From positions 1-50,526 of the forward strand of contig PDHQ01000253.1 of the NCBI GenBank assembly GCA_003339415.1: a stretch of DNA of 50,526 nucleotides, given 5' to 3'. Source of the DNA: Ophiocordyceps camponoti-saundersi (nom. inval.). Lineage: Eukaryota; Ascomycota; Sordariomycetes; Hypocreales; Ophiocordycipitaceae. How positions within the stretch are numbered: the first letter of the stretch is position 1; every line of letters begins with the position of its first letter. A program made the position numbers and the translations under genes. The notes beneath the pieces were generated by a model. It ran no database searches and was not told the origin of the DNA. It was given only the letters and a program-made list of their open reading frames with translations. Below, in pieces: positions 4,690-50,526 of the stretch.

Positions 4690-5250
4690 GGGAGGGTTAG
4701 TATTACCCTAAGCATACTTACTAGATACCTATTACGTCTAACTTCGTAGCCTCGTAGGTGACTATAGTTTTTAAATACTATAAGTTGTCTCTAGCTATAC
4801 GGGTATAAGCTATATAGTATTTCTCTATAAGGAAAGTAATAGGAAGTTATTTTCCTATAAAAAGATAAAGTAAACTATAAAAAGAAAGGTAAAAACTACT
4901 TAATCGATAAATTAGGGTTTCGAAATATATATTTAAGCTAGTAATTTATTATATTAAGGTATAAGATTTAAAATAAAGCTATAATTTCGTTAAGTATACT
5001 TTTTACTATAAGTACTCTCTAGTCTCTAAGACTTAATTTATAATATATAACTTTTAAAGTAGGTATAAACGTAACGTTAAGGGCTAATTCTATATAATTC
5101 CTTTATTTTTAAAGGAAACTAATCTGCGCTATATACTTTATAATAGCCTTCTCCTATCTTAAGCACCCCTTATATCCTTATCCCCTAAGGCTCTTAGTAG
5201 AAGAGATAGGCTTTATAGTTATTTAATTAAACTATACGAAGGTTTTTTAT
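4690..5250 (+). mobile_element. Family A TIR element, degraded copy
   Basis: It is collinear with the better copies at 19,027 and 25,072. The shared order is a TACCCTAAGC-like block just inside the left end, a TATAGTA-TTCTCTATA block, a purine-rich GATAA-GA block, an AGTAATTTATAGTA-like block, a TTTTTACTATAAGT block, an AAGACTTAA block, GGGCTAATT, and a right-hand ATTTAATTAAAC block. Neither terminal TTTAGCGG repeat is clearly kept, so the limits are approximate. No transposase frame is present, as in all copies. Confidence 0.65.
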
Positions 5251-8710: not shown

Positions 8711-8972
8711 TATTAAGTACTAAACGTATTTTAAATATTTATTTTTAATCTAATTATTTATATTATTCTTTTTAATATAATCTTTATCTTTTTAAATATA
8801 ATAAGTTTACCTAAGCTAAAATTATATTAATTATATATCGTAATTATAGTTTACTTAAAGGTTTCTATTAATCTACGCTACGAAATATATAGTATTATAA
8901 TATTAGATAGATTTAACGTATATTTAAGCTGCTTACGGACTTCGCTAATAAAATAATTAGAAGTAAAGGTAG
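8711..8972. other. Spacer before a family A copy
   Basis: AT-rich DNA downstream of the second BTB pseudogene, ending at the family A terminal repeat. Nothing else is seen. Confidence 0.4.
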
Positions 8973-9295
8973 TTTAGCGGGGAAAGAAGGATACCCTAAG
9001 TAAGCGTAGTAGATACTTAAGGGGCGTAACTTCTTAGGTAACTAAAGTCTTTAACTAATATAAGGGGGGATCTTTAGCTATAGGGGGAAGAGCTAGATAA
9101 TAATTCTTTATAGGGAGAATAATAAGGAGTCGGTTTTCTATATAGAGATAAGAGAAGAAAGAGAAAAGAAGTTAAGAACTATTTAATTAAGTGCTAAGAA
9201 CTTAAACTACTAGGGCCTCTAAAAATCTCTTTTAGATACTTAAGAGTCTGTAAATCTTAAGCTAGGTCTTAGTAATAACTTATAGTAAAAAAAAA
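8973..9295 (+). mobile_element. Family A TIR element, 3' truncated
   Basis: It starts with a clear TTTAGCGG terminal motif preceded by GGTAG, exactly as in the copy at 25,072, then the TACCCTAAG, GCGTAGTAGATAC, TAACTAATATAAGG and CTATAGGGGG blocks. Similarity is strong to about 9205, then patchy to the AACTTATAGTAAAA block near 9290, with the right third missing. There is no right terminal repeat. Confidence 0.75.
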
Positions 9296-10129
9296 AGACT
9301 CTTATTTATAATTATAACTTTACTTTACGTCTAATATTTCCCTATAAGAAATTACTTATTTAAATACCTTCTATAATAATATTTTACTCTAATAAAATAG
9401 CACTTATAATTCCCTCTTATTATTATTATCTTCGTGGAAAACCGGTTTCTTATCCTTTCCTACGTATAAAATTACTATATAACTTATACTCTTATATCTT
9501 AATATCTCTTCTTTTACTATTCGAATACTTTAATAATATAGGGACTTACGCCCCTTATAGTTACGCTATAGTTACTAACCTTTTTATCTCCTTATATAGT
9601 AATTTTTAGATACTTATAGATACGCCTAAAGAGAATAAGTTTAGATAAAGATAAGAAATAATCGGGAACTAAGTTATATAAGATACGCACGTATTAGTTT
9701 TTAAGCTTACTCGATTTCTAAATACTCTTATATATAAGGGTTATAAAGGCGGTTATATTATAATAGCCGCTATTGCTAAAATATTAAATATATTATTATA
9801 TTTCTTCTTATTACTAAGGAAAATAAAATATACTTATATTTAAATTACTACTATAATATAGTCCGTAATATCTTCCTCCCCTCCTTCTTTAATACTAGCG
9901 TTATCTTTCTTAGCGAAAAGGTTCGGTATATCTTTTGCAATTCTTAGCGTAACCTCTTCGTATATATAGTTTTCTAACTTTTCGCTTACCCCCCCTTCCT
10001 ATCTCTTAGACTTTAGGAATACTACTATTATATTTTTTACCTCTGCCTCTTTTTATATTAAACCCCTAAATTTCCTCTAATTATATATCGATATCTTTAT
10101 ATTATTCTAAATATAGTTTACGTATAACC
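9296..10129. other. No gene recognised
   Basis: AT-rich sequence that becomes somewhat more GC-rich from about 9,890 onward. It may hold the decayed 5' part of the coding relic that follows, but no continuous frame could be followed. Confidence 0.4.
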
Positions 10130-13204: not shown

Positions 13205-16000
13205 ATAAGGACCTTTATAGTAGTAGCAGCGCCTTATCTAGCGTATTAGCTAAGTATATAGGATATAATAGTCTTATTATAAAGAAGAGAGGCTATTCCG
13301 TTTTTTTTTAACCTAGCTTATTGTTCCTAGAGCAGTAAGAGCCTAATATTATACTATCGTTAAGTATAATAACCTTTACGCCTAGCGGTACTAGCTTACC
13401 TATTATAATAGCCGAGTATATATAAAGCGATAGTCCTATTAGAAAAACGTATTAGAAAGATAATAGGCAGCTTAAGTATTCTAAGCTAGTTTATTATTAA
13501 GATCCCCGCCTTATCTTATATAATTAATTTATCTTTTTCTTTTCTAGATATATCCGATAATCGTCTATTAAGATAAATATCGTACTTTATTACCCCTAGA
13601 TATATTTAAAATAAGGAAAGCTTTTATATTTTTAACTAAAGGCGAGGTTAACTCTTAACTAAGTATTATAAATATAGATCTTAGCGCTAAAGATATCCGT
13701 ATAATAACGATTCTTATTATTTAATAAAAGGTTAGCTTATTTCTTTATATTAGGCTAATTATCGAAAACTAATATAAACGGGGTTAGCTCTCTCGACTAA
13801 TTATCCTAGTCTAAGTATCGATTAATCTTATCCTAGTTAAGCTAGTTAGTATAGTTTATATAATAATAATATTTTATAATTAAGTTACTTAGAATCTAAT
13901 TTAAAATAAACTACTCTAATCTCTAACTAATTACTTACTTAATCCTTAGATATATCCGATAATTATCTATTAAGATAAATATTATACTTTATTACCTATA
14001 TATATATTTAAAATAAAAAAAGCTTATACGATTTTAACTAAAGGCGAGGTTAATTCTTAACTAAGTATTATAGATATTAATCTTAGCGCTAAAAATATCT
14101 ATATAATAACGATCCTTATTATTTAATAAAAGGTTAGCTTATTTCTTTATATTAGGCTAATTATCGAAAACTAATATAAATAAAGTTAGCTTTATAAACT
14201 AATTATTCTAGTCTAAATATCGATTAATTTTATCTAAGTTTAGCTAGTTAGTATAGTCTATAAGGTAATAGCTTTAGGCTTCTAAGCTAACTTCTAAACT
14301 ATATAAGGTAAAGGATTAATTATATTATACGCGATAGAAGCGTATTATAGCTATTATAGCTAATAAGTAAAGTTATTAATTAGGCGTTATAAGCTTTCGA
14401 CCTCTAATAGATTATACGGGGTATTAACTATTACGCTAAAATTTTATATATTACGAAGGGTACTCGTATTTCGGTTTATTTAGCTATATATATAACTTAT
14501 TATTTCTAATATACCCCCTTAGTTACGAGGAAAGGGATTTCTTTTCTAGATATATCCGATAATCGTCCGTTAAGATAAATATCGTGCTCCGTTACCCCTA
14601 AATATATTTAAAATAATAAGAGCTTATATAAGTAATAGTCCTATTAGAAAGATAAGAGGCAGCTCGAGTATTCTAAGCTAGTTTATTATTTAAGATCCCC
14701 GCTTTATATTATATAATTAATTTATATTCGATTTTATCTAAGTTTATAAGTATTATAAGAGCCTGAAAACTAACTAAGATACCGTTTAATATCTTTACTA
14801 GAGTATTAAGCTAGATAATATATATTAGGCCTTATATATCTTCTTTACTAAGTTAAGGTTCCTAATTATAGTAAGAGGATTTAAGTCCGGTTAAAGGCGA
14901 TAGAATAAGCGTAGGCTACGGCTTTTCTTATCGTTTTTCCGACTTTATAATAGAAAGCTTTACCGCCTTATTTTACTATAAGTTAAAGTTATAATATATT
15001 ATCCCGTAGTTAAATATAAGGACCTTTACGATTTTAGGTAGCGCTTTCGATATCGTATTAGCTAAGTATATTAAGGGCGATTATCCTATCGGAAAGATAA
15101 GAGATAGGTCTAGCTCGCTAAGCTTTTCTATAATTTCTAAGGTAGCGGGAGTCCCTAGTCTTATTTAATTAAAGGAAATACTATTTCGTCCTCGCTAAAG
15201 TTTATTAGGATTATTAAAACCTTAAAATTACCCGATACCTTATTTAGTGCCTTAGCTAAAATATTAAGCTATATAATATATATATATAGTAGGTATAATA
15301 TCTTCTTCGTTCTATTAGTAATCCTAGGTCTAATTAGCAATCCGTAGTCTAAGGAGTTAACCCCGCCTAATAGCGATAGAATAAGGATAAGCCGCGTTTC
15401 TTCTATATTATATAACTTAAAGTTTATATAAGGGACCTTAATATCGAATAGGCTTATTACCTCTAAGTTACCTTAAGTTTATTAGGTTACTAATAGTTAT
15501 TAACTAAACTTATAAGAAAAGCTAGTAAAATTCTAATAATATAAGCTAAGAGAATCCGAGATAAGGTAGGCTAATAAAATTCTAATAAGGTAGCTAGATA
15601 GAATTTAGGACTAGGAATGCTAATATAATTCTAATAAAATATCTTAAGCCCTATTTATCGTATCCTTACTAATATCGCTTTAAGCTCGTTATTTATCGGA
15701 TTCTTAACGGGAAGTATCTAATACTTAACGGGAAGAAGGGGAAAAGGTAAAACTATCCGAATCGGAGCTTAAGAACCGCTATACCTCCGCTAGAGATATT
15801 TAAGCCCTAACTTAATAGCAAAGAGGATTACCTAATCATCTTATAAGTTTAAGTTAGTAAGCTTAGAGTCGTTAAACGTAATAACCTCTATAACTAGCGG
15901 CAGCGCCTTAATTAGTATATTAGCCGAGTACGTAAAGGGTAATAATCCTATTAGAAAGATAAGAGGCAGCTTGAGGATTCTAAGCTACTTTATCGTTCCT
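13205..16000. repeat. Repeat E2: dispersed ~100-bp motif, five copies
   Basis: A motif of the form ACCTTTAC, GCGCCTTA, TATTAGC-GAGTATAT, AGTCCTATTAGAAAGATAAG, AGGCAGCT recurs at about 13,205-13,300, 13,371-13,500, 14,625-14,700, 15,012-15,115 and 15,880-16,000, always in plus orientation. Spacing is irregular because repeat E1 sits between copies. Both strands give long frames across it with RIP-type stops only (for example VLAEYVKGNNPIRKIRGS on plus), so a decayed internally repetitive protein gene is possible. I could not fix the strand or the family. Confidence 0.55.
13545..14262 (+). repeat. Repeat E1: 316-bp direct duplication
   Basis: Two near-identical blocks of about 316 bases, 13,545-13,860 and 13,946-14,262, each start with TAGATATATCCGATAAT and end near GCTAGTTAGTATAGT. 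A third, truncated copy (about 68 bases) begins at 14,546. Differences are mostly at expected RIP positions or small. The duplication is among the least diverged in the window, hence relatively recent. There is no open frame and there are no terminal inverted repeats. Confidence 0.8.
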
Positions 16001-19020: not shown

Positions 19021-19026
19021 ACCTAT

Positions 19027-19642
19027 TTTAGCGGGGGGGGGGATATTCTAAGCGAGCGTAGTAAATACCTAAGGGGCGTAACTTCTTAAATAATAGGGGT
19101 CTTTAACTAATATAAGGGGATATCTAGCTATAGGGGGGGCGGGCTAGATAGTAATTCTCTATCGGGAAAAAAAATAGGAAGTCGGTTTTATATATAAAAA
19201 TAAGAGAAGAGGGAAAAAAAAGGATAAATACTATTCGATTAAGTGCTAAAAACTTTAAAATAGGTATTTAAATTAGTAATTTATAGTAAAAAAAATATAA
19301 GGTTTAAAATAAAGTTATAATTCTATTTAGTAGAGTTTTTACTATAAGTCCTCTCTAAGACTTAACTTATAATCTACGACTTTTAGGATAGCTATAAAGA
19401 TAAGGTTAAGGGCTAATTTTTATTTAATTTCTTCCTCTCTTAAGGGTAACTTATTTACGCTATATATATAGTAATAGCCTCTATTCTATCTTAACCGCCT
19501 TCTATATCCTAATCCTTAGAAGCTTTTAGGAAAAAGAAAGGGCTTATAGACTATTTAATTAAACTCTATTTACGTCTATAATAGTTCCTTAGCTAAGGCT
19601 TACGCGTATTTCTCCTTTAGCATTTCTGCTACCGCCGCTAAA
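19027..19642 (+). mobile_element. Family A TIR element, complete copy (616 bp)
   Basis: It is bounded by TTTAGCGG (19,027-19,034) and CCGCCGCTAAA (ending 19,642), which are inverted repeats of about 8-9 bases. TA lies next to each end, which suits a TA target duplication as made by Tc1/mariner-type transposases. The length of about 616 bp and the absence of any transposase frame make it a MITE-like non-autonomous element. A G10 tract directly follows the left terminal repeat. Its internal blocks match the other copies throughout. The superfamily is inferred only from the likely TA target. Confidence 0.82.
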
Positions 19643-22267: not shown

Positions 22268-22758
22268 GCGTAGTAATTCTTTATAGGGGGAGTAATAGGA
22301 AGTCGGTTATCTATATAAAGATAAGAGGAGAAAAAAAAAGATAAGAATTATTTAATCGAATACTAAAGATTTTAAGATAAGTATTAAAATTAGTACTTTA
22401 TAGTATAAAAGTGTAAGATTTAAAAGGAAGTTATAATTCCGTTTAGTAAAGTTTTTACTATAAGTTCTCTCTAAGACCCGACTTATAATATATAACTTTT
22501 AAGATAGTAGTAAAGATAAGGTTTAGGGCTAATTACTTACTTAATTCCTTCCTCTTTCGAGGGAAACTATTCTATACTATATACCTAGTTATAGCCTCTT
22601 TTCTATTCTAAACACCTTTTACGCCTAATCCTTAAAAGCTCTTAGGGGAAGATAAGGGTAAAGGGAAAATTTAACTAAACCTTATATAAGCTACTAATAG
22701 TTCCCTAGCTAAGGCTAATACGTGTTTATCTTCGGGCGTGTCCGTTACCGCCGCTAAA
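22268..22758 (+). mobile_element. Family A TIR element lacking its left end
   Basis: It is collinear with family A from the TAGTAATTCTTTATAGGG block to the right end CCGCCGCTAAA at 22,758, followed by CTACC, the mirror of the GGTAG found before the left end of other copies. That places the last element base at C 22,759, followed by TA. The left 120 bases are replaced by unrelated sequence carrying a family C type 3' block. Confidence 0.78.
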
Positions 22759-22979
22759 CTACCTATATACGTAACCCTTCTTATTTTCCTCGCCCTTCTT
22801 AATTACTACGAATCGCTATAACCTACCCTACACTACTTAGAATATCTTTTTTTTTTCCCTTTTTTTTCCTATACGCTATAAGTCTCTCTTTTACTCCCTT
22901 AAAACTTATTCTATAATATAATTAAATAAGAAGAGCTGTTTTTCTTTATCTTATAACCTTTTATATTTAAAGGGAACTA

Positions 22980-24947: not shown

Positions 24948-26098
24948 TTTTAGCGGGAGTAACGGGCACCCCTGCCTATATATATAGCCCTCGTAGAGAA
25001 GACGGTTTTAAGGACGTAGAACTAATAAGTCTATACGGGTCGGCCGGGCCAGGCCAGGGCCGTATAGGTAGTTTAGCGGGGGAAGAAGGATATCCTAAGC
25101 AAGCGTAGCAGATACCTAAAGGGCGTAATTTCTTAGGTAACTAATATCCTTAACTAATATAAGGGGGGATCTCTAGCTATAGGGGGGGGGGGGGGGGGGG
25201 GGGGCCCGGACTATATTATTCCTTAAGGGAAAATAATAAAGAGTCGGTTTTCTATATAGAGATAAGAGAAGAAAGAGAAAGGAAAATAAGAATTATTTAA
25301 TTAAGTGCTAAGAACTTTAGAAAAGGTATTTAAATTAGTAATTTATAGTATAAAGGTATAGAGTTTAAAATAAAGTTATAATTCTATTTAGTAAAGTTTT
25401 TGCCTTAAGTCCTCTCTAAGACTCGACTTACGATATACGACTTTTATAATAGCTATAAAGATAAGGTTAGGGGCTAATTACTTGCTTAATTCGTCCTCTT
25501 TCGAGGGAAAACTAACCTATACTATATACCCGGTAATAGCCCTTATCTTAACTTAACCACTCTTATATTCTAACCCTCGATAACTCTTAGGGGAAGAGAA
25601 GCGGTTAAGGGACTATTTAATTAAACCCTATATAAGCCCCTAATAGCTCCTTAGCTAAGGTAAGCGCTTATTTTTCTTTAGGCGTGCTTATTACCGCCGC
25701 TAAAGTAAGTTAGGGTTATAGGCGTTAAAAGGGTTATTTAAACTAACCTGCCTAATCTAACGGATCTAATTAATTAGTATCGCTAGGCTAGAGGGGGCTA
25801 AAGGATCTAGGGGTCCTAGGAAGGGTTATTTTATACGTATAAGAAGCTTCCTTTTTCCCTCTCCTAGGAAGAAGGACTAAGGTAGCCGTAAGCCCTTTAA
25901 TATAAAGTTAGTCGCCGTGAGCGTATTCGGACCTAGCTAGGTAGGGCTACCTGCTACGGATCCCTTCCTTAGCCCTGTAAAATCTACGCCCCCTAAATTA
26001 CTAGGAATTACTTAGAATTACCCCTTTTTCCCTTCTTTTTCCCTTTTTCTTCTTTTTTTTCTTCTACCGCGGCGTATACCTATTTATCCCCGTTAAAA
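24948..26098 (+). mobile_element. Family B TIR element, split by family A
   Basis: The left end TTTTAGCGGGAGT (24,948) and right end ATCCCCGTTAAAA (ending 26,098) form imperfect inverted repeats of about 12-13 bases. With the 633-bp family A insertion removed the element is about 516 bp. The left part carries CGGGCACCCCTGCCTATAT and GAAGACGGTTTTAAGG blocks, also present at 37,101 and, inverted, at 47,480-47,571. The reverse copy at 46,524-47,571 is collinear over the full length. There is no transposase frame, so it is a non-autonomous element. Its core terminal motif TTTAGCGG is the same as family A, suggesting that one transposase moved both. Confidence 0.82.
25072..25704 (+). mobile_element. 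Family A TIR element inserted in family B (633 bp)
   Basis: It runs from TTTAGCGG (25,072-25,079) to CCGCCGCTAAA (ending 25,704), with TA on both sides. Comparison with the family B copy at 46.5-47.6 kb gives the empty site: CCGTATA-GTAAGTTAGGG is continuous there, but here it is split into CCGTATAGGTAG and GTAAGTTAGGG around the insert. This fixes the boundaries and the TA-type target. A G23 tract at 25,182-25,204 follows the CTATAGG block. No coding frame. Confidence 0.88.
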
Positions 26099-31338: not shown

Positions 31339-31434
31339 GGGGGGGGGGGGGGGGGGGTCGGCCCCCTGCCGACTCCGCGCGAAGCNNNNNNNNNNGTGTG
31401 CGGGAAGGTGCTGTGCGGTGCTGGGGGGGGTGGT

Positions 31435-31465
<31 letters not shown>
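31339..31465. other. Assembly gap between long G-tracts
   Basis: A G19 tract (31,339-31,357), a GC-rich stretch, ten N (31,386-31,395), a TpG-rich segment (31,396-31,434) and a G31 tract (31,435-31,465). The segment right of the N carries several TpG in 40 bases, unlike anything within 15 kb on either side. This looks like a poorly resolved or misjoined contig junction, so sequence order across it is not certain. Confidence 0.85.
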
Positions 31466-38155: not shown

Positions 38156-39426
38156 ATTTAAGTCTTTTAACTTAATTTAAAAGGATTAGGGGGGGGGGGT
38201 AGTCACGTTATAGTTCTCTATATATAGAGAGAAAGTATATCGATTTTCCGCAAACTAATAGTAGTAATTAGAGGAAAAATAGAAAAAAAAAAAAGCTAGC
38301 CGTAATAGCTTAATTCCCCTAAGCGTTATAGTTATTTATACTAGCTTTAGCTTCTACTTTTACGAATAAAGAAGATATTAAAGGGATATTGCTTATTTAT
38401 TTCTTTATACTTCCTTTTCTCTCTTAACTTTATTTTCCCGCGATATTTTCCTTCCCGGTCGTTTCTAGCTTCTCCTTTCTCCTTTACTTTACCTTTCTCT
38501 ATCCGCTTAATTCTTTCGGCTTCCTTAATATAACTAGCCTAGCTAAATATAAAAAAAAAAAGAAAAAAAAAAAACACGGAGCTTTTAATCGAGAGCGCAC
38601 GGTAAGGACCTTATAAAGACTATAGTAGCATAAGCCTTATTAACTAAATACGAAGGATATAATTTACTAGTTTAAGCTAGTATATCTAAGTAAAGATAGC
38701 TTTAAAGCTATAATATAGTATTCTTTTTATCTCTTTCCGCTTTATCGAAAGAAATATAATATTTATTTTTCGAAAACCTATAATTCGGTAGTCGGCTTTT
38801 AGCTTACGATATTCTCTTAATAAGGCATAGTTCTTCTCTATTATTCTCCTAAAAGATAAATAAAGAAGATACCGATAGCGTACTACCTAGCTATATTCCC
38901 CCTTTTCTCCCTATTCGTATTCTTTATCTAGTTATCTTCTTTTTTTTAGTAGCTTTAGACGATATATTATAGCGTATAGCGTTCTTCTTCTTCCTTTCTT
39001 CCCCGCCTTTTTACTTTCCTTTTCTTCCCTTTTCTTATTATTAGATCTTATTAGATCTTATCGGATCTTATCTTTCTTATCGTAGTATATAGACGCCTTT
39101 TATAGTTATCCTTTATTAATACTAATCTTATCTATTTCTTTATTAATATAGCGATTTATAGCTTTATAATACCCCTATCTCTTAGAAAGGGGCAAATAAA
39201 CGCCTTTTTTAAACGGTTCGTTTTACCGGTATCTTTCTTCGTTTTCGTAATAACGCCGCTAATTTACTTATTTAAGTAACTTACGATATATTTACGTCTT
39301 AGTTTATATATATATAAACCCCCTTATCCCCCTTTCTCTTATATATACTTATAAGTTTAATTCTTAAGTTTAATTCTTAAGAGCTATCTTATATTACGAC
39401 TATTATTTAATTATAAAAAATAAGAA

Positions 39427-39810
39427 AATATTAAGAATAATATAGCTTCTTAAATCCTTAACGCTTTAAGATAAATCGCGGAGAACTTTACCGCTAGGAG
39501 CGGAGCTTATAGTAACCCTTTTACTAACGTCGCCTCCTATATGCGATAGCTTATATAAGTGCTTATTAATTTCGTTACGGAAATCCGATCCTTTACGAAT
39601 TAGCTTCGCTCCTTCGATAAGCGCCTTAGTTATATAATATCCTAACCTAACCTCGTTAAATAACTATTAATATTAACTAGTAACGATAAAATAATAGGGC
39701 TTAAGGATAATCTTATAGTAGCTAACGGTTTACCGCCCCGCGAATAAAGATATACGGATATATCTATATACGATATTAACGAGGAGGAGCTAGATAAAGG
39801 GGAGATCTAA
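39427..39810 (+). pseudogene. Family C small gene, copy 2
   Basis: One frame of about 127 codons runs to TAA at 39,808-39,810. It reads ILNALR, then IAENFTARSGAYSNPFTNV, FDKRLSYIIS, LLILTSNDKIIGLKDNLIV, ANGLPPRE, and NEEELDKGEI. Stops inside are TAA/TAG only, mostly where copies 3 and 4 also have them, at presumed Gln codons. The repeated Leu/Ile spacing suggests amphipathic helices, possibly a coiled coil. The start codon cannot be fixed because ATG is destroyed in this DNA. Unknown function; the gene is conserved with each repeat unit, so it is probably the unit's own product. Confidence 0.6.
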
Positions 39811-40089
39811 ATCTTATAATTACCGGGGGAATAGGTAGGTTTAAGTATAATAGCTTAATCGTAGAGGATTAGGGGATATAAAGGTTTAAGTCTTTTTACT
39901 TTCGGGGCGAGGAGGAGGGTAAGCTAAATAGTAATCCTCTATATAGAAAAGAATAAGATATTAGTTTACTTTATAATTATAGCGGTAATAAAGAACGATA
40001 ATTACGAATAATTCGATAAATCTCTCGGTACCTTAGAATAGATACTCTATTCGGTAATTTATTATAGTAAAGTATAGATAGTTTTAAGG

Positions 40090-40440
40090 AATAACGACTA
40101 AGGTAGCCGTAAGCCTTTTAAAATATAAAAGTAGTCGCTATAAGCGTATCTTTATATAGCTAGTTAGGCTACCTATTTACGTAGCCCTTATTCTTTTCCT
40201 TCCCTTTAGAATTGCTACGAATTACGAGGATTACCTTATATTACTTAGTATTACTCGTTTTTTTCCTCTACTTTTTCGATTCGCTATAAGTGTCTTTTTC
40301 CCACGTTATAGTTACTTTCCTAGGTATAATCGAATAAGAAGAGCTATTTTTTTCTTCTTACGGCTTTTTTACTCCGCGATAATTAGTTTTACCTCTCTCC
40401 TACCCTTACTACTGCTCTCTCTTACGCGCCTTTCTTTATA
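40090..40440 (+). repeat. Module M copy in the family C array
   Basis: It matches 24,585-24,940 and 42,362-42,705 block for block (CTAAGGTAGCCGTAAGCC, GTCGCTATAAGCGTATC, TAGCTAGTTAGGCTACCT, AATTGCTACGAATTAC, GAATAAGAAGAGCTATTTTT). It sits between the end of one C unit and the next. It may be a separate small element trapped in the array, or the array's own segment from which family B took its right half. Confidence 0.6.
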
Positions 40441-41640
40441 AGAGCACCTCCTTATTTAATATGTCCGTTAAAGGTAAATAACGATAACGCCGAAGTTATA
40501 CTACTTAGCTATCTTTTTCTTTTTCTTTTTCTGCTTTTCGTAATTAGATATAGATATTTACGTAGAAGTATTAGTAACCTATAGCGAAGGAAAAAAAAAG
40601 GCATTTAATAGGGGATACGCGGTAAGGACCCTATAAAGATTACTATAACGTAAGTCTTATTTAACGAAGGCGAAGAACGCGATCTACTAGCTTAGGCTAG
40701 GTAGGTCCGGGAGGAGACGGTCCTAAAGTTATAGCACGTTATTATCTTAGTCTCTTTTCCGCTCTTCCGAAGTAAATATTAGATTTAGTTATCGAAGACC
40801 TGCGATTCAGCAGTTAGTATCCGACTTATAACGTTCTTTTAAGAAGGTATATTTCTTCTTTATTACTCTCCTTAATTACGAATAAGGAAGACGCCTAAAG
40901 CGTAGTTCCTAGCCGTTTTCTTCTCTTTCTGCTTATTCTTTTTTCTTTAACTAGCTGTCTTCTTCTTATCGTGCCTATTCGTTTCTTTATATTTTCTCTT
41001 CCCTCTTAACTTTATCCCCCCCGTTATCTTATCCTTCCCGCTCGTTTTTATCTTCTTCTTTCCCTTTAAACCTTAGAGAAGTACGCCTCTTCGTTTAAGA
41101 TAATACTCTTTCTTCTTAAGTATTTAATTAGATATAGACTTAGCCGCTCTAGACGATAGATTATAGCGTATAGCGTCCTTCTTCTTCTTTTCTTCCCTAC
41201 TTTCTTACTTTCCTCTTTTTCCCTTTTCTTATTATTAGATCTTATTAGATCTTATCAGATCTTATCTTTCTTATCGTAATATATAAACGCTTTTTATAAT
41301 TATCTTTTATCGATACTAATCTTATCTAATTCTCTATTAATATAGCGATTTATAGCCTTATAATATACCTATCTTTTAGAAAAGGGTAAATAAACGCCTC
41401 TCTTAGACGGTTCGTTTTACTAGTATTTTTCTTCGTTTTTATAATAATACCGCTAATTTACTCGTTTAAGTAACTTACGATATATTCACGTCCTAGTTTA
41501 TCTAGATATAAACCCCCCTCCTCGCCCCCTTTCTCTTATATAAACTTATAAGTTTAATTCTTAAGTTCTATTCTTAAGTTCTATTCTTAAGAGCTATCTT
41601 ACGCCGCTACCGTTATTTAATTATAAAAAAATAAGAAAAT

Positions 41641-42084
41641 ATTGAGAATAATATATTTTCTTAAATCCTAAACGCTCTTAGATATATCGCGGATAACTTA
41701 GCCGCTAGGAACGAAGCCTATAATAACTCTCTTACTAACGTCGCCGACTATATACGATAGCTTATATAGGCGCTTCTTAATATTATTACGGAATTCCGAT
41801 CTACTACGAATTAGCGTCGCTTCCTCGATAAGCGCCTTAGTTATATAATATCCTAACCTAACCTTATTAAATAACTATTAATACTAACTAGTAACGATAA
41901 AATAATAAAGCTTAAGGATAATCTTATAATAGCTAATAGTTTACCGCCCCGTAAACGAGAACGTATAGATATATTTATAGATAATCTTATAATAGCTAAC
42001 GGTCTAACGCCCCGCAAATAAGGACGTATAGATATATTTATATATAACTTTAATAAGGAGGAGCTAGACGAAGGGGAGATCTAA
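41641..42084 (+). pseudogene. Family C small gene, copy 3, with internal duplication
   Basis: Same frame as copy 2: NALRYIADNLAARNEAYNNS, then LTNVADYIR, FRSTTN, RRFLDKRLSYIIS, LLILTSNDKIIKLKDNLI, PPRKRERIDIFID, ending EEELDEGEI with TAA at 42,082-42,084. A 63-bp (21-codon) in-frame direct duplication begins at 41,917 and 41,980 and is absent from the other copies. In-frame duplication suggests that it arose while the gene was still coding. Stops are TAA/TAG only. Confidence 0.62.
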
Positions 42085-42361
42085 ATCTTATAATTACTAG
42101 GGGAATAAGCAGGTCTAAGTATAATAGCTTAATCGTAAAGGATTAGGGGATATAGAGGTCTAAGTCTTTTTATTTTCAGGGCGAGGAGGAGGGTAAGCTA
42201 GATAGTAATCCTCTATATAGAAAAGAATAAGATATTAGTTTACTATATAATTATAGCGGTGATAAAAAATAATAATTACGAATAATTCGATAAATCTCTC
42301 GGTACCTTAGAACGGATACTCTATTCGGTAATTTATTATAGTAAAGTATAGATAGTCTTAA

Positions 42362-42705
42362 GGAATAATAACTAAGGTAGCTATAAGCTTTTTAAAATAT
42401 AAAGGTAGTCGCTATAAGCGTATCCTTATATAGCTAGTTAGGCTACCTAGCTATATAGCCTTTATTCTTTTCCTTCCTTTTAGAATTGCTACGAATTATA
42501 AGGATTACCTTATATTACTTAGAATTCCTTATTATTTTCTCTTTACTTTCGATACGCACTAAGTATCTTTTCCCCTATTCGAACTCTTTTCCTTAACGTA
42601 ATCGAAAGAGAAGAGCCTCTCTTCTTTTACTCGAGGTTTTTTTACTACGTAATACTTCGTTTTACTTCTATTCTACCCTCGCCGCTACTCTCCCTAACGT
42701 ACCTT
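42362..42705 (+). repeat. Module M copy in the family C array
   Basis: Same blocks and position relative to the C unit as at 40,090-40,440. A further partial copy occurs at about 43,480-43,740, so the array includes at least one incomplete extra unit between 42.7 and 44.0 kb. Confidence 0.58.
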
Positions 42706-43367
42706 CTTTTACGGTAGCCCCTACTTCTTTAACATATCTATAAAGAATTAATAAAGAAGACGCCGAAGTTATAGTTCCCGGCCGTCTTTTCTTCTTCTGC
42801 CGTTTATTTTCTTTACCTAGCTATCTTCTTCTTTTCCCCTCTTCCCTCTTAACTTTATCTTCCTTATAATAACCTTCTCTTTCCTAATTGCGATAATATC
42901 TAATTTTACTTACGCCTGCTACTATTACCTTTATCTACGACTACCTAACGCTGCGATAACGCCGCCGGCAATAACGATTACTTACGAGCCCGACTACCGA
43001 CGCCGCTACTCTTATAGGCCTTTTACCTCTTCTACCTTAAGATAGCCTTCTTCTTTTTTAATTTTTCTCTAGCTTTAAGCGTATGCTTAGCCTGCCGGTT
43101 TTCCTTCTTCTCCTACGTCTTATATACCCTATATAGCCTTTATCTATCTTTTCGGCTCTATTAATAGCTAATAATAGCACGATACTAGTTTTCTACTACC
43201 CGCGAGGGTTTTCTGCCGGTTAAATTATACCTTAATAAGGCTTTTAGAGACGGAGGGTTAATACCCCTTTATCTACGTTATTAGTAATAGACTTAGTAAG
43301 TAGGTATAAAAAGCACGCTAGGCTTAGCTAGGGCTATAAGTTAGCACGAACAGGAGCCCCCCCCCCC

Positions 43368-43470
43368 CCTTCTTATACGGATTATTATCCTTAGGTTAAA
43401 TTAAGCTCGACTATTTTACTATTTTAATATACTATCTTTTTTTTCTATTACTTAGCTATATAATACTTTT
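43368..43470 (+). repeat. Repeat G, copy 2
   Basis: It resembles 18,905-19,020 in the same orientation. It follows a C13 tract (43,357-43,369). At 19,027 the equivalent position is followed by a family A element, absent here. Confidence 0.42.
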
Positions 43471-44503
43471 TCTTTTCCTACTATTATAAATTACTATAAA
43501 TTATACGGATTACCTTATATTACTTAGAATTACTTATATTTTCTATTTCTATATCGAGGCGCTATTATTATCCTTTCCTATATTAAAATTATTTTCCTAG
43601 GTATTATTAAAAAAGAAAAGCCGCTCCTTTTTTACTTACGGTTTTTTTATAACGTAATAATTCGTTTTACCTCTTTTCGGCTTTTACTAGTATACTCCCT
43701 AACGCACTTTTCTTTACGGTAGCCCTACTCCTTCGATATATTCGTTAAAGATAAATAAAGAAGATGCCGAAATTATATTACTCGGCTATCTTTTTCTTTT
43801 CTGCCTGTTCGTTTCTTTATACTTCCTCTTCCCTCTTAACCTCGTCTTCCCCGAGATCTTATCTTTCCTATTCGTTTCTATCTTCTTCTCTCCCTTTACT
43901 TTTACTTTTTCTATCCGCTTATTCCTTTCGGCTTCCTTAGATTAATCTATCCGGCCGGATATCTTCGGACTTATAAGGAGTCCGCCTTTCCGTCTAAGAT
44001 AATACTTTTTCCTTCTTAAGTATTTAATTAATTATAAAGATAGCGGCTATAAAATATAAGTAATAGCGTATAGCGTCCTTCTTTTTCTTTTCTTTCCCTA
44101 CCCTTTACTTCTCTTTTTTTTTTTCTAATTATTAGATTTTATAGTATCTTATCTTATTTTATCGTAAAATATAAACGCCTTTTATAGTTATCTTTAATCG
44201 ATACTAATCTTATCGTTTTCTCTATTTAGATTTATAGCCTTATAAGGCTATAATACCCCTATCTCTTAGAAAAGGGTAAATAGACGCCTCTTTTAGACGG
44301 TTCGTTTTACCGATATTTTTCTTCGTTTTTATAATAACGCTACTAATTTACTTATTTAAGTAACTTACGATATATTCACATTCTAGTTTATCTAGATATA
44401 AACCCCCCTCCTTACCCCTTTTCTCTTATATAAACTTATAAGTTTAATTCTTAAGAGCTATCTTACGCCGCTACCGTTATTTAATTATAAAAAATAAGAA
44501 AAT

Positions 44504-44884
44504 ATCGAGAATAATATATCTTCTAAAATCCTAAACGCTTTTAAATAGATCGCGGATAACTTAGCCGCTAGGAACGAAGCTTATAATAACTCTCTTACTA
44601 ATATTACCTATTAGATATAATTACTTATATAAGCGTTTCTTAATATCGTTACGGAATTCTAATTTATTACGAATTAGCTTCGCTCCCTTTATAAGCGCCT
44701 TAGTTATATAATATCTTAACTTAACCTTATCGAATAACTATTAATACTAACTAGTAACGATAAAATAATAAGGCTTAAGGATAAACTTATAGTAGCTAAT
44801 AGTTTGCCGCCCCGCGAATAAGGATATACGGATATATCTATATACGACTTTAATAAGGAGGAGCTAGACGAAAGGGAGATCTAA
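44504..44884 (+). pseudogene. Family C small gene, copy 4
   Basis: It is collinear with copies 2 and 3: IENNISSKILNAFK, then IADNLAARNEAYNNSL, and an acidic EEELDE-EI end with TAA at 44,882-44,884. It has one or two extra lesions around the middle (TAA/TAG). The upstream 500 bases also match those of copies 2 and 3, including the TATAAACCCCC-like and CTTAAGAGCTATCTTA blocks, which probably formed the promoter and 5' leader. Confidence 0.58.
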
Positions 44885-44953
44885 ATCCTATAACTACTAG
44901 GGGGGGGGATAAGTAGGTTTAAAGCTTATAACTAGATTATAGAGGATTAAAAA

Positions 44954-45471
44954 GGGGGGGGGGGGGGGGAGATAGTAATTCTTTATAAGGGGGGGGTTAA
45001 TAGAGAGTTAGTTTTCTATATAAAGATAAGATAAGAGGCAAAAGGAAAAATAGGAACTATTTAACTAGTTATCGAGATTCTTAAGATAAGAATTTAAATT
45101 AGTAATTTATAGTATAAAAGTATAAAGTTCGAAATAAAGTTATAATTCTATTTAGTAAAGTTTTTATTATAAGTTTTCTCTAAGACTTAACTTACGATAT
45201 ACGACTTTTATAATAGCTATTAAGATAAGGTTAGAGGCTAATTACTTACTTAATTTTTTTCTTCTTTTAAGGGAAACTAATCTATATTATATACCTAATA
45301 ATAGCCCTTATCTTATTTTAATCGCCTTTTATATCCTAATCCTTAGGAGCTCTTAAGAGAAGGAAGGGGCTAAGATATTATCTAATTAAACCTAGTATAA
45401 AACCTTAATAGCTTCCTAGCTAAGGTACGCGTATATTTTTTTCCCCGGGCGTATCCCTTACCGCCGCTAAA
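44954..45471 (+). mobile_element. Family A TIR element joined to a G-tract
   Basis: It begins in a G16 tract (44,954-44,969) that replaces the left terminal repeat and first 120 bases. From the TAGTAATTCTTTATA block onward it is collinear with other copies and ends CCGCCGCTAAA at 45,471, followed by CTAC. It lies directly at the end of the last family C unit. Confidence 0.75.
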
Positions 45472-46254
45472 CTACGCCGATATTCGGTACTAATACTAAG
45501 GTAATATAAAGGAACTATTTAATATCTATATTAAAGGGCGGATTACGTAGGATATATATAATATTATTAATTATCTTTCCTATACTTTATAGCTAGTAAA
45601 GAGGCCGCTAAATAGCTTATAGTAATCTTTACTAAGCTCTCGCTTAATTATCTAAGCTATATTAGTTAACTAATAACTCTTAAAGTAACTTTTTATTCTA
45701 AGAAGTAGCTACTTTTTATTATAAGCTTTAATTTATTTATAGCTAAAAAAGTTTATACGCTTCTTTAAGCTTAGTTACCCGCGTCTGCGTCCGATAAGTA
45801 TCGGCCTCTAGAGGGATATTCTTAGATATCTTCGATAATTAAACTTAGGTATATAAGGCTTACCGCGAATAATAGTACAGGCTTAGCGCTTATTAGGTTC
45901 CCGTTTTGCTCTATTCTTTTTAAGAAGCTTAGAGATAGGCACTTAACTACTATAGCTTATTATTTACCTTTTTTAAGCGAACTCGCTACTAACTTTTACT
46001 AATTGCTTCTTCCTTTCTACTTCCTATTTACGTTACTTTATCTCTTAAATATAAGTAATAAACTCTCTATTATTCTTAGTAAGGAACCTCTTAAGCTATT
46101 CCTTATTCTTCGCCTAGCGTTAGCTTTTAAGTAATATCTCCTTTTTAATCGAGTCGGGTATAAAATCCCCGTCCTTCGAATTATTATTATTAAAATTACT
46201 AAAGCTTATAAAAGTTAGTCCTTATACGTTAATACCTTTAGTTATCTTTTATAT
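45472..46254. other. No gene assigned between two family A copies
   Basis: AT-rich with moderate GC near 45,770-45,900. Plus-strand stretches open over 40-60 codons are present but share nothing with the decayed genes elsewhere. Confidence 0.4.
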
Positions 46255-46523
46255 ATTTAGTATTAATTAAGTACTTAACCTTTTAAAACGAGTATTTAAA
46301 TTATAAGCTTACTATAAAAGTATAAGGATTATAGTAAAGCTATAATTCTATTTAATAGAGTTTTTACTAGAAGTCCTCTATAAGACTTAACTTATAATAT
46401 ACGACCTTAAGAATAGCTTAGAAGATAAGCTTAAGGGCTAATTCTTACTTTATTCCTCTATCTTTTAAGGGAAACTAAACTATATTATATACTTTATAAT
46501 AACCCTTATACTATCTTAGGCGA

Positions 46524-47571
46524 TTTTTACGGGAATAAATAGATATACCTATATACCGTAGCTAAGGAAAAAGAAGAAGAGAAAGGGAAAAGGGTGCAGA
46601 AAAAGGGGCAGTTCTAAGTTATTCCTAGTAATTTAAAAAGCGTGGATTTTATAGGGCTAAGAAAAGAAGGGGTCCGTAGCAGGTAGCCTTACCTAGTTTT
46701 GCGGGGGGGGGGGGGGGGGGGGATACCCTAAGCGAGCGTAGTAGATACCTAAGGGGGCGTAACTTCCTAAGTAACCGGGGTCTTTAACTAATATAAGGGG
46801 GGGTCTCTAGCTATAGGGGGAAAAACTAAATAGTAATTCCTTATAAGGAGAAAGACTAGAAGTTAGTTTCTTATATAGAGATAAGAGAAGAGGGAGAAAA
46901 AAAGGCAAGAATTATTTAATTAAATTATAAAGACTTTAAAATAAGTATTTAAATTAGTAATTTATAGTATAAAAGTGTAAGGTTTAAAGTAAAGTTATAA
47001 TTCCGTTTAGTAGAGTTTTTACTATAAGTCCTTTTTAAGACTTAACTTACGATATATAGTTTTTATAATAGCTGTAAAGATAAGGTTAGGGGCTAATTAC
47101 TTACTTGATTCCTCCCTCTTTCGAGGGAAACTAACTTATGCTATATACCTATTAATAACCCCTACTTCGTCTTAACCACCTTTTATATCCTAATCTATAT
47201 AAGCTCTTAGAAGAAGAAACGTGTTAAGGGACTATTTAACTAAACCCTGCTCGGAATCACTATATTTATCGAGGCTGCCTTCGCCATATAATAGGTAGGA
47301 AATTAACCCCTTCTTATACGTATAAATCTAATCTTCCTAGGATCCGTAAGTCCTTTAACCCCTTTTTAGCTAAGTAATACTAATTAATTAAATTCGTTAA
47401 ATTAGGTAAGCTAGTTTAAATAACCCTTTTAACGCCTATAACCCTAACTTACTTATACGGTTTATAGGGCCTAGTAGACCTGTATAGACCTAATAGCCCT
47501 GCTACCTTAAGACCGTCTTCTTTATAAGGGATATATATTTATAGGCAGGGGTGCCTATTACTCCCGCTAAA
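46524..47571 (-). mobile_element. Family B TIR element, reverse, split by family A
   Basis: The ends are TTTTTACGGG (46,524) and CCCGCTAAA (ending 47,571), the inverted repeats of family B. Its reverse complement is collinear with 24,948-26,098: the AGGCAGGGGTGCC and GACCGTCTTC blocks lie near the right end and GGTAGCAGG-type and TTCTTCTTTTTCC-type blocks near the left. With the inner family A copy removed it is about 495 bp. It interrupts an older family A copy and is itself interrupted by a younger one. Confidence 0.82.
46697..47248 (+). mobile_element. Family A TIR element inside family B, right-truncated
   Basis: The left end TTTTGCGG runs into a G20 tract (46,703-46,722), then the TACCCTAAGCGAGCGTAG block and the full family A order to ACTATTTAACTAAACCCTG. 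The last 80-90 bases and right terminal repeat are missing; family B type sequence is recovered at about 47,310. It is the youngest layer of this nest. Confidence 0.78.
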
Positions 47572-48040: not shown

Positions 48041-49760
48041 TTATATTAGACGCGCTCGCGACGCTTATATTATTAAACCGCGCCGATAGTAAGTAAACTA
48101 CGTAGGATAATAGTAATAATAAGGACGCCGCCTTATTAGTTAATCTCTAGTGCCTATATACGCCCTAGCTTAATAACTTAATAAATAATAGCTTAGATTA
48201 TATTCGGGGTCGCTACGCGGCGTAAGATATACTTTTACGGATAGCACTTATTTACCGCCTACGCTCGCCTTTAGCTAGCTATCCGTAACTTATAGGTAAT
48301 AAGTCGAGATAATATTACTCTTACCGAGTCTCCCTAATAAGAAGGTCTTTTACCGCTAAGATTATAAAAATATACCTTAACCTTAAGAAGTCCTACGCTA
48401 AGTTTCTATAGTTTAAGATTAAGAGGAGGATATAGATAAAGATAAGCCTCTTAAGCTTATAGTATATAATATAACCGGTAATATATCTTAATTATAGGAA
48501 ACGCCTAAAAACGCGTTTTCCGGGTTTTTTAATTAATTTAGTATTTAAGAATAGGATATAAGTTATCCTAGCGCTAACCCCTTAGATTTACTAGTTAAAG
48601 AGGCGGAATTAGCCTCCTATATACCTATAACCCCTAACTTTTTAGATCTTATAGGGAATTTAGCTATTCTATTTAGCTAAGCCTTAGTAGATAAGCTTTA
48701 TTTAAACTATTTGCCGGAGCCCGCTCTTATATATAAAAGATTATCCCTTCGATTAAGGTTTACGAGGCTCCTCCTCCTCGTATAACTCCTAGCGCGACCC
48801 TAACTCCTAGGACGATCCTATACGAAGCGAAGGAAACTCCGGATCCCTCTATAGCTCTTGTAATTATCCTAAAGAGCCCGGCCTTCGTCCTTCCTCCTAT
48901 ATAACTAATTTATAATAATCCGATCACCCCTAAGAAAGTAATTACGTTTAGTAAAGGTTAGCGAAAGGACTAGTGTTACTTAGGCCGACCGTATAATATC
49001 CTATATAATAAAGCTAAGCTTTTTATATTATACTGCCGAAAGATTAGCATTACTAAGGATTAATACTACGCTATCTTTCTAGATATTCTTATAAGTCCCG
49101 CGTAATTATACTACCTTTACTATATAGGACCTGAGAAGAGGTAGGATAAGATCTAAAAGATACTCGATTCGCACTTTAATATAGCTACGAATTACACGTA
49201 GTATTAAGTTAACTAGACCGGTACGACGTTCCCTTTTATACGAAGGAAGTTCCCGGATAAGACGATACTAGAAGTCTTCGAGGAACTAATTAAGAAAATA
49301 TAACTCGTATAACGCGTACTTAGCGAAGGGGAAACTTAGCTATACGCTACGATAACTAAGGCCTGCCGTAGCGTGCCGGAACTTAAGCTAGTATTTCTCT
49401 TTACGAAGCCCTCGTACGAAGAGTTTTTCTTTATTCTTCGTATATTACTTTAGATCGCTCTTAACCGTAGGAAACTAACAGATTAATTCTTCGTTAATTA
49501 ACGCTACCGTACGAATTCTTTATATTCGAATTCTCCCTAGCTATAGTTTCGTACGGGCAAATTTAAGTAGGTTCGGTAGGAAGACCGACGCCTATTACCC
49601 CGTACGAAGAAACGTTACTTTATTTATAAGAAGATAAGGTTACTAGTTAATAAACTATAAGTAGGGAGACTTCGACCGCGCGAGAAAGGCATACCCTCGC
49701 AGACGCTTATTATACGGAATACTAAGGATAACTCTAGGATAGTAGGGGCAGATTTACGTC
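48040..49760 (+). pseudogene. gag: Ty1/copia-type retrotransposon gag, decayed
   Basis: The structural polyprotein of an LTR retrotransposon, which forms the particle and binds RNA. A long plus frame with TAA/TAG stops reads YEAPPPRITPSATLTPRTIL, then NKAKLFILYCRKISITKD, LDSHFNIATNYT, FPDKTILEVFEELIKKI, and ITKACRSVPELKLVFLFTKP, the usual order of the fungal copia Gag domain. At 49,613-49,660 the zinc knuckle is visible: RYFIYKK, then (after a one-base deletion) GY-LINYK, that is C-x2-C, GCWS and a His after RIP. TAC/TAT stand for Cys and TAG for Trp. A DRARKAY-type basic segment and YYTEY follow. No protease, integrase or reverse transcriptase is seen, because the tandem array takes over at 49,885. 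Confidence 0.85.
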
Positions 49761-49835
49761 TAGACTATAAGTCTAGGACTAGAAAATTAGTTTTTATAAC
49801 ATAATATACAAATTATCTTATCGACTAAGCATATT

Positions 49836-50246
49836 TTGTTACCTCTTCTTATCTCCTATATTATATATAACAACCTACGTGACTGCCCTCCTTATCCCCT
49901 AAGGGACAAACCCGTTAACTGCTCTTCTTATCCCCTAAGGGACAAACCTGTTAACTGCTCTTCTTGTCCCCTAGGGGACAAACCCGTTAACTGCTCTTCT
50001 TGTCCCCTAGGGGACAAACCCGTTAACTGCTCTTCTTATCCCCTAGGGGATAAACCCGTTAACTGCTCTTCTTATCCCCTAGGGGACAAACCCGTTAACT
50101 GCTCTTCTTATCCCCTAGGGGACAAACCCGTTAACTGCTCTTCTTATCCCCTAAGGGACAAACTTATTAACTGCTCTTCTTGTCCCCTAAGGGATAAACC
50201 CGTTAACTGCTCTTCTTATCCCTTAGTCTTGTCCCCTAAGGGATAA
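49836..50246 (+). CDS. Open frame across the minisatellite, 136 codons
   Basis: The only sizeable intact frame in the window. It begins at TTG (no ATG), follows the gag relic, and encodes about ten copies of a 12-residue unit of the type YPLRDKPVNCSS, with Y/C and R/G exchanges. It closes where a 13-bp insertion shifts the frame at about 50,220. The unit has one Cys and two Ser per repeat. Openness may be a simple result of a 36-bp unit (divisible by three) without a stop, so expression is doubtful. It could also be a residual part of a Gag C-terminus expanded by slippage. Confidence 0.25.
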   Translation: MLPLLISYIIYNNLRDCPPYPLRDKPVNCSSYPLRDKPVNCSSCPLGDKPVNCSSCPLGDKPVNCSSYPLGDKPVNCSSYPLGDKPVNCSSYPLGDKPVNCSSYPLRDKLINCSSCPLRDKPVNCSSYPLVLSPKG

Positions 50247-50526
50247 ACCCGTTAACTGCTCTTCTTATCCCCTAAGGGACAAACCCGTTAACTGCTCTTC
50301 TTGTCCCCTAAGGGATAAACTTGTTGACTGCTCTTCTTGTCCCCTAAGGGACAAACCCGTTAACTGCTCTTCTTATCCCTTAGTCTCTTCTTATCCCCTA
50401 GGGGATAAACCCGTTAACTGCTCTTCTTATCCCCTAAGGGATAAACCCGTTAACTGCTCTTCTTGTCCCCTAGGGGACAAACCCGTTAACTGCTCTTCTT
50501 ATCCCTTAGTCTTGTCCCCTAAGGGA
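49885..50526. repeat. 36-bp minisatellite with an 18-bp palindrome per unit
   Basis: About 17 units, marked by CCCGTTAACTGCTCTTCTT at 49,911, 49,947, 49,983, 50,019, 50,055, 50,091, 50,127, 50,163, 50,199, then 50,248, 50,284, 50,320, 50,356, 50,410, 50,446 and 50,482. Spacing is exactly 36 except for two jumps (49 and 54) where a TCCCTTAGTCT segment is added, a third beginning near 50,506. The unit core TTGTCCCCTAGGGGACAA is a perfect 18-bp palindrome; GTTAAC is another. Variants are TTG/TTA and ACAA/ATAA, which are RIP-type changes, plus CTAGG/CTAAG, which is not. The array continues beyond the window. Confidence 0.95.

Follow-up and report, generated by a model that had tools for sequence, protein, structure and literature searches.

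In foxtail strains of Pyricularia oryzae, subtelomeric arrays with truncated copies have been described after telomere failure, and the 4-kb repeat in these strains is bordered by interstitial telomere tracts (PMC8381367). HeT-A and TART of Drosophila attach to chromosome ends head-to-tail with the constant end toward the centromere (PMC5537684), and the terminons, or Athena elements, of bdelloid rotifers attach to exposed ends by a constant end and are 5'-truncated by telomeric repeats (PMC6431247). MoTeR (PMC7367193) and FoTeR (PMC12857005) are fungal telomeric retrotransposons that encode a reverse transcriptase and carry telomere repeats at the 3' border. Here we describe a 36-bp minisatellite array at a contig end of Ophiocordyceps camponoti-saundersi, which we are inclined to regard as the leading edge of a subtelomeric unit that re-caps eroded chromosome ends, always from TAGTAGGGG.

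The window analysed here is the whole of contig C170 (50,526 nucleotides) from a 45.7-Mb assembly of one strain with 733 contigs and few telomeres. From its left end, the unit consists of a 142-bp boundary beginning with TAGTAGGGG, the array, and collinear DNA that reaches about 20 kb in the longest copy. As in P. oryzae foxtail strains, variously truncated subtelomeric repeats lie near chromosome ends and a link to telomere failure suggests itself, whereas the joints in this fungus lack telomere tracts and the unit has a nine-base start, a folding boundary, a minisatellite and a longer collinear sequence (PMC8381367). The one-orientation, head-to-tail chain with its constant end toward the centromere resembles HeT-A and TART, in contrast with which there is no oligo-A at the joint, no RVT_1 was found behind the array, and the fungus has TTAGGG telomeres (PMC5537684). 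Large size, head-to-tail order and a folded constant end adjoining telomere-like sequence are shared with terminons, as would be the attachment to exposed ends, but no hammerhead ribozyme, RVT_1 or telomere-repeat stretch at the joint was seen here (PMC6431247). Likewise, a position at fungal chromosome ends, internal tandem repeats, truncated copies and internal relics are shared with MoTeR and FoTeR, as is RIP with FoTeR, while no RVT_1 was found in the present unit and its joint is without telomere repeats (PMC7367193, PMC12857005). The unit has the constant end, variable sites and single orientation of telomere-attached retroelements, and it shows neither an RVT_1 match nor a joint of telomere repeats or oligo-A. 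The putative re-capping joints appear to differ from those of the compared cases, where telomere repeats or a retrotransposon mark the site of joining. Among titles and abstract openings, mostly outside subscription journals, no constant telomere-repeat-free joint with a minisatellite was found.

The 36-bp tandem array that the initial annotation had placed at the window end is real and runs on the forward strand from 49882 to 50526, stopping where the contig stops at an assembly break. It contains 17 units beginning with ACTGC; two of them deviate in length (49 and 54 bp), and the window end truncates a third irregular unit. The 16-mer CTGCTCTTCTTRTCCC of the array gave 667 + 678 = 1345 exact matches in the genome, whereas its reversed control gave none, so the array is non-random, and the unit proves to be dispersed, as the annotation had suggested checking. 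Its further statement that every unit holds a perfect palindrome did not survive, since TTGTCCCCTAGGGGACAA occurs only three times in the array; the RIP-changed form TTATCCCCTAGGGGATAA occurs twice and the asymmetric core CCCCTAAGGG ten times. GTTAAC, also ascribed to each unit, has 14 occurrences in the array and 15 in the remaining window. These 0.65 kb are the first part of an array that continues for at least 3 kb in C22 and C6, where spacers of about 215 bp separate successive blocks of the 36-bp unit. At C22:408.6-411.5 kb (about 3580-6500 of L039), spacers and blocks form a higher-order repeat with RIP damage far above that of the preceding pure array. Two or three array units showed strong predicted single-strand folding (z of about -7), and hairpins or cruciforms are possible based on this model. 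A coding repeat was considered and rejected: although a frame stays open in places (NCSSCPLRDKPV), it is thrown out of register by the 49-bp units, and the ORFs in L062, which comprises the boundary and arrays of C567, stop within the array. No homologue appeared among 7995 candidates scored.

Directly before the array lies a non-repetitive sequence of 142 bp (49740-49881, plus strand), the constant left boundary of the putative capping unit, which had at least 40 matches of 85-100% identity among the best 40 of 45 candidates. We read the junctions of 17 of these at least 40 copies. In the window, the last flank base is A (49739) and TAGTAGGGG begins at 49740; in 17/17 junctions the same first base follows the flank A, and the start is TAGTAGGGG except for one TAATAGGGG with a single G-to-A change. 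All 17 joints carry these nine constant bases, which are telomere-like at most, without any further telomere repeat or oligo-A. For 12 junctions, an intact relative of the flank displays the state before joining, and in each of them A is present at the site in at least one relative. The next base in the intact target is T in 10 of the 12 and C in C65; for C30, the relatives are divided between C and T. ATA is found in the intact target at 8/12 junctions, for which the chance probability was 1e-7 to 3e-7 given that ATA makes up 6.6-7.2% of positions.

Read from the other strand, the left end of the unit terminates in CCCCTACTA. The minus-strand RNA of the boundary was predicted to fold better (z of -2.95 and -2.86 in two copies) than the plus strand (-0.88 in one copy), with GGGCAG pairing with CUGCCC in a closed stem and CUACUA free at the 3' end. 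A double change occurred in 1 of 47 pairs, the copies being too alike for covariation to be judged. Searching L062 against Rfam up to E 10 on both strands yielded no hammerhead ribozyme; the models that did match were those of microRNAs and other small RNAs, each under its gathering score, and the window itself gave no Rfam match at gathering score and no tRNAs.

The DNA to which the boundary is joined in the window (1-49739, plus strand) is RIP-mutated subtelomeric sequence with its telomere side to the right, and C65 matches both ends of its 1.3-40.27 kb interval with equal spacing. Its last part, at about 48400-49739 (plus strand, left edge approximate), is an RIP-mutated gag sequence which we take to be Copia-like from its reading frame and which ends about 450 bp short of the intact telomere site; a protein search with this flank gave no match among 1453 candidates. 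An LTR-like repeat lies upstream of it at 46721-47245 (plus strand) and is one of at least eight related stretches of about 530 bp, roughly 70-84% alike, the others being at 4745-5233, 8970-9203, 19024-19642, 22271-22760, 25062-25704, 44972-45473 and 46263-46518; relatives also occur within the body of the unit and next to the fossil telomere described below. The window also holds a block at 38946-44949 that is present two to three times with 80-85% likeness, and a scaffold gap of 10 N at 31386-31395 with a 43-base G-rich run adjoining at 31423-31465.

Three contigs, C343, C623 and C696, cross the Copia-like flank, continue 450 bp past the window junction and then enter TTAGGG repeats at the identical base. 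Since the same sequence stands beside a telomere on all three, the flank is subtelomeric; these were also the only terminal TTAGGG runs in our pattern searches. The annotation's suggestion to look for copies beside gag genes and telomeres was thereby borne out, with gag-like sequence adjoining and these telomeres near. Distances from joint to telomere site are 839 bp in C603, 648 in C22, 557 in C427, 452 in the window, 316 in C567 and 226 in C640. In addition, six contigs have in common an internal (TTAGGG)4-5 tract, which adjoins a GC-rich border and points outward in the five that could be oriented. The tracts lie inside AT-rich DNA (L078-L083, from C97, C30, C32, C214, C228 and C246), and each is probably a fossil chromosome end. 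The C6 joint lies about 187 bp short of such a tract, a conserved (TTAGGG)5, so that 7/17 joints lie within 1 kb of a present or former telomere site.

When the flanks of the 17 joints were placed, 13 proved to come from elsewhere in the same repeat family, joined head-to-tail in 13/13 cases (two-sided p 2e-4) and at 13 different points; the other four (L065, L066, L068 and L071) found no placement. The flanks of the window, C22, C427, C567, C603 and C640 end within the Copia-like sequence at the window end, that of C6 beside the fossil telomere, those of C65 and C462 at positions corresponding to 40270 and 2823 of the window, those of C265, C30 and C577 within the unit body, and that of another C567 joint within the array of another copy. 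In C30, the boundary at 1685-1834 has body as its flank, which ends at about 9.48 kb, exactly where the next boundary starts; a further boundary sits on that strand at 14829-14978. The joints at C30:14978 and C214:11170 fit the head-to-tail rule, judged by coordinates only. The annotation's idea of a recombination hot spot is in keeping with these results, because the unit marks a site of repeated rearrangement.

To see what had become of the sequence beyond each joint, we used the 835 bp that directly precede the telomere as query and, among the best 40 of 81 candidates, obtained eight matches of at least 84%. Three were full length, and the other five ran from base 1 to their own junction and stopped; within these candidates, no telomere-side remainder resumed behind a junction. 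Considering that nested insertion predicts resuming pieces, truncation is favoured, while remainders could have been missed because the assembly is fragmented into 733 contigs and part of the candidates were scored. Copy number also falls outward. The window interval at 1.3-3.3 kb occurs on 31 contigs, the window among them (34/34 candidates scored), those at 32.5-34 kb and 39-40.5 kb on at least ten and at least six contigs excluding the window (best 38 of 324 candidates, many of them weak at 70-75%), and the last 835 bp at least eight times at its start and at least three times at its telomere end (best 40 of 81 candidates). Assembly gaps and partial candidate scoring could mimic part of this fall.

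Behind the array, the unit continues as a long body. With the 550 bp behind the C22 array as query, at least 40 near-complete copies were recovered among the best 40 of 88 candidates, and C22, C726 and C176 are collinear there and 90-92% alike for at least 11.6 kb. A further C176 stretch is matched up to its end at base 10001 by at least 24 other contigs (best 26 of 1164 candidates); about 25 kb separate this base from the boundary and about 20 kb from the array, and no right end of the unit was seen down to it. No RVT_1 match fell within the part of the unit that follows the array in C176 (10001-35388), C22 (407876-423400) and C726 (104663-121932), in a genome-wide search of which the best 150 of 182 candidates were matches, most with several in-frame stops as RIP-broken copies. 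A weak RVT_1 match in C265 (24010-24471), whose copy is about 10 kb longer than the others by coordinates, is probably a later insertion. As such, the unit appears unlike an autonomous telomeric retrotransposon, and any reverse transcriptase would have to act in trans. Pfam found no family in the frames of the unit with stops read as X, an uninformative result in that the Copia-like control gave only two matches, both with E above 0.1. The contigs with the body tail and those with the window interval at 1.3-3.3 kb do not overlap, and the open flanks of C31 and C471 were not joined through two slices of C32. One continuous unit of body and window is therefore no more than putative, and this counts against the re-capping explanation.

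Re-capping has two main rivals, nested transposition and pure recombination. A large transposon of a conventional kind, such as a Helitron-like one, might have its left end at TAGTAGGGG, insert between A and T with a preference for subtelomeric repeats and carry the array internally, so that head-to-tail order would reflect nested insertion. The fixed end in at least 40 copies and the C567 copy inserted into the array of another agree with such an element, as does the site itself, with A before the unit in 12/12 (in at least one relative) and T after it in 10/12 comparable targets, the left side alone being visible. Canonical Helitrons begin with 5' TC, end with a 3' hairpin plus CTRR and insert between A and T without target duplication. 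However, the left end here begins with TA, and its other strand ends with CCCCTACTA, so this end has the Helitron form in neither orientation. Also against a transposon are the same orientation in 13/13 placements, the lack of an interrupted target seen to resume behind the unit, the drop in copy number toward the telomere and the missing right end down to C176:10001, and we consider this explanation rather improbable. Less probable again is pure recombination, in which ends whose telomere has failed undergo break-induced replication with one another, a course proposed for Pyricularia, and the constant start is an interstitial telomere remnant (TAG-TAGGGG) at the unit border. The start is indeed telomere-like, the conserved interstitial (TTAGGG)4-5 tracts of six contigs, outward in the five orientable ones, accord with such a history, and so do the foxtail arrays bordered by interstitial telomeres (PMC8381367). 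But healing by telomerase should leave TTAGGG in variable number and phase, whereas 17/17 joints have the same nine bases and no further repeat. Assembly artefacts from collapsed repeats are very improbable, since 17 different flanks meet the same base and both boundary and flank carry copy-specific transitions, even though several arrays lie at contig ends and the window was scaffolded with 10 N.

Mutation patterns around the joints were then compared. Before its last 0.8 kb, the window is depleted of CpA and TpG, with observed/expected values of 0.01-0.21 per 2.5-kb block, the pattern left by RIP, while the array has values of 0.86 for TG and 0.23 for CA. In 383 units from 16 arrays, the TpG of TTGTCC has become TA in 279 and the CpA of GACAAA in 238, as has the TpG of ACTGCT in 51, and differences between units are mostly C/T or G/A. 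The array had been described as spared by RIP, which was not borne out: it is partly mutated, strongly so in C22 and C6, but far less than its surroundings. At ACAA/ATAA sites, CA is kept in 19/38 cases in the window array versus 10/2277 in the remaining window. Context matters as well, because GCAG/GTAG sites outside the array keep CA in 87/485 cases against the 10/2277 of ACAA/ATAA, and the TpG kept in nearly every array unit sits in this GCAG context, which is RIP-resistant elsewhere in the window too. Over window positions 1-49738, CA/(CA+TA) was highest with G in front, at 40% for GCAC, 18% for GCAG, 8% for GCAA and 7% for GCAT, and did not exceed 5% when the preceding base was A, C or T. 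The earlier suggestion that the unit is too short for duplication sensing may hold but is not a full account: part of the TpG retention is a matter of GCAG context, although the ACAA sites of the array are truly under-mutated.

In C462, the array on the boundary side keeps CA at 55/99 ACAA sites, versus 0/69 in the far array of that copy and 3/74 in the body. The boundary-adjacent array has far less RIP than the older flank before it and, in C22 and C462, than the far array and body behind it, so that a stretch with its start precisely at the joint carries fewer mutations than the DNA on both sides. Such a stretch might be the DNA most recently added to each joint. Alternatively, pure short repeats could just evade RIP, in which case the weak mutation of boundary and array would reflect their nature as short repeats and not a recent origin; this possibility counts against re-capping. 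A gradient of RIP within arrays was significant in C22, C427, C30 and C31 and not in the other 10 of 14. Transversions were 0/19,992 pairwise sites in the boundary (17 copies, 136 pairwise comparisons), 24/70,490 in the Copia-like flank and 186/255,756 in 19 bodies, or 2405/283,838 when L054, left out because its row runs into an unrelated insertion, is included. Transversions were therefore discarded as a clock: they are nearly absent from boundary, flank and body alike and indicate no age difference, and the parts differ in RIP instead. In L054 (C214), AGTCAGT/ACTGACT-rich sequence at about 1-711 interrupts the body, matches no other compared locus and looks like a recent insertion hardly touched by RIP.

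Taken all together, the constant boundary, the single orientation, the proximity to telomeres, the missing remainder and the outward fall in copy number argue for re-capping, and the ATA site bias, the better fold of the minus strand and the low RIP beside the boundary lend it further support. That eroded chromosome ends were re-capped is, by a modest margin of belief, the probable course of events. A telomere would be lost, and erosion would remove anything from a few hundred bases up to tens of kilobases before the end was capped anew. The capping could start with the eroded 3' end, in most cases A or ATA, acting as primer on the terminus of a minus-strand transcript (...CUGCCCCUACUA). The boundary element would fold this transcript, which would end in CCCCUACUA, and attachment would proceed much as in HeT-A or terminons; although we prefer RNA priming as the mechanism of the fixed start, we hold it to be less likely than not. 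The new end, carrying an array common to other ends, might then invade one of them and have the rest copied by break-induced replication, for which the array would be a homology reservoir. This step is conceivable, and somewhat closer to even chances than RNA priming. The full combination, a chromosome-end repair in two steps and started by RNA, in which a folded non-coding 142-bp RNA end is used in trans by a reverse transcriptase, perhaps telomerase, to cap A or ATA ends and the palindromic array then serves as homology for break-induced copying of the subtelomere, is speculative and improbable as a whole.

If re-capping is true, chromosome ends in this fungus would be repaired in an unusual way, with at least 13 truncation points in one genome closed by the same nine bases, boundary and minisatellite. 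The history of chromosome-end loss would thereby be readable in the sequence, and RNA-primed capping beyond the known retroelements would become testable. It would also show that RIP-mutated DNA is still usable as material for end repair.
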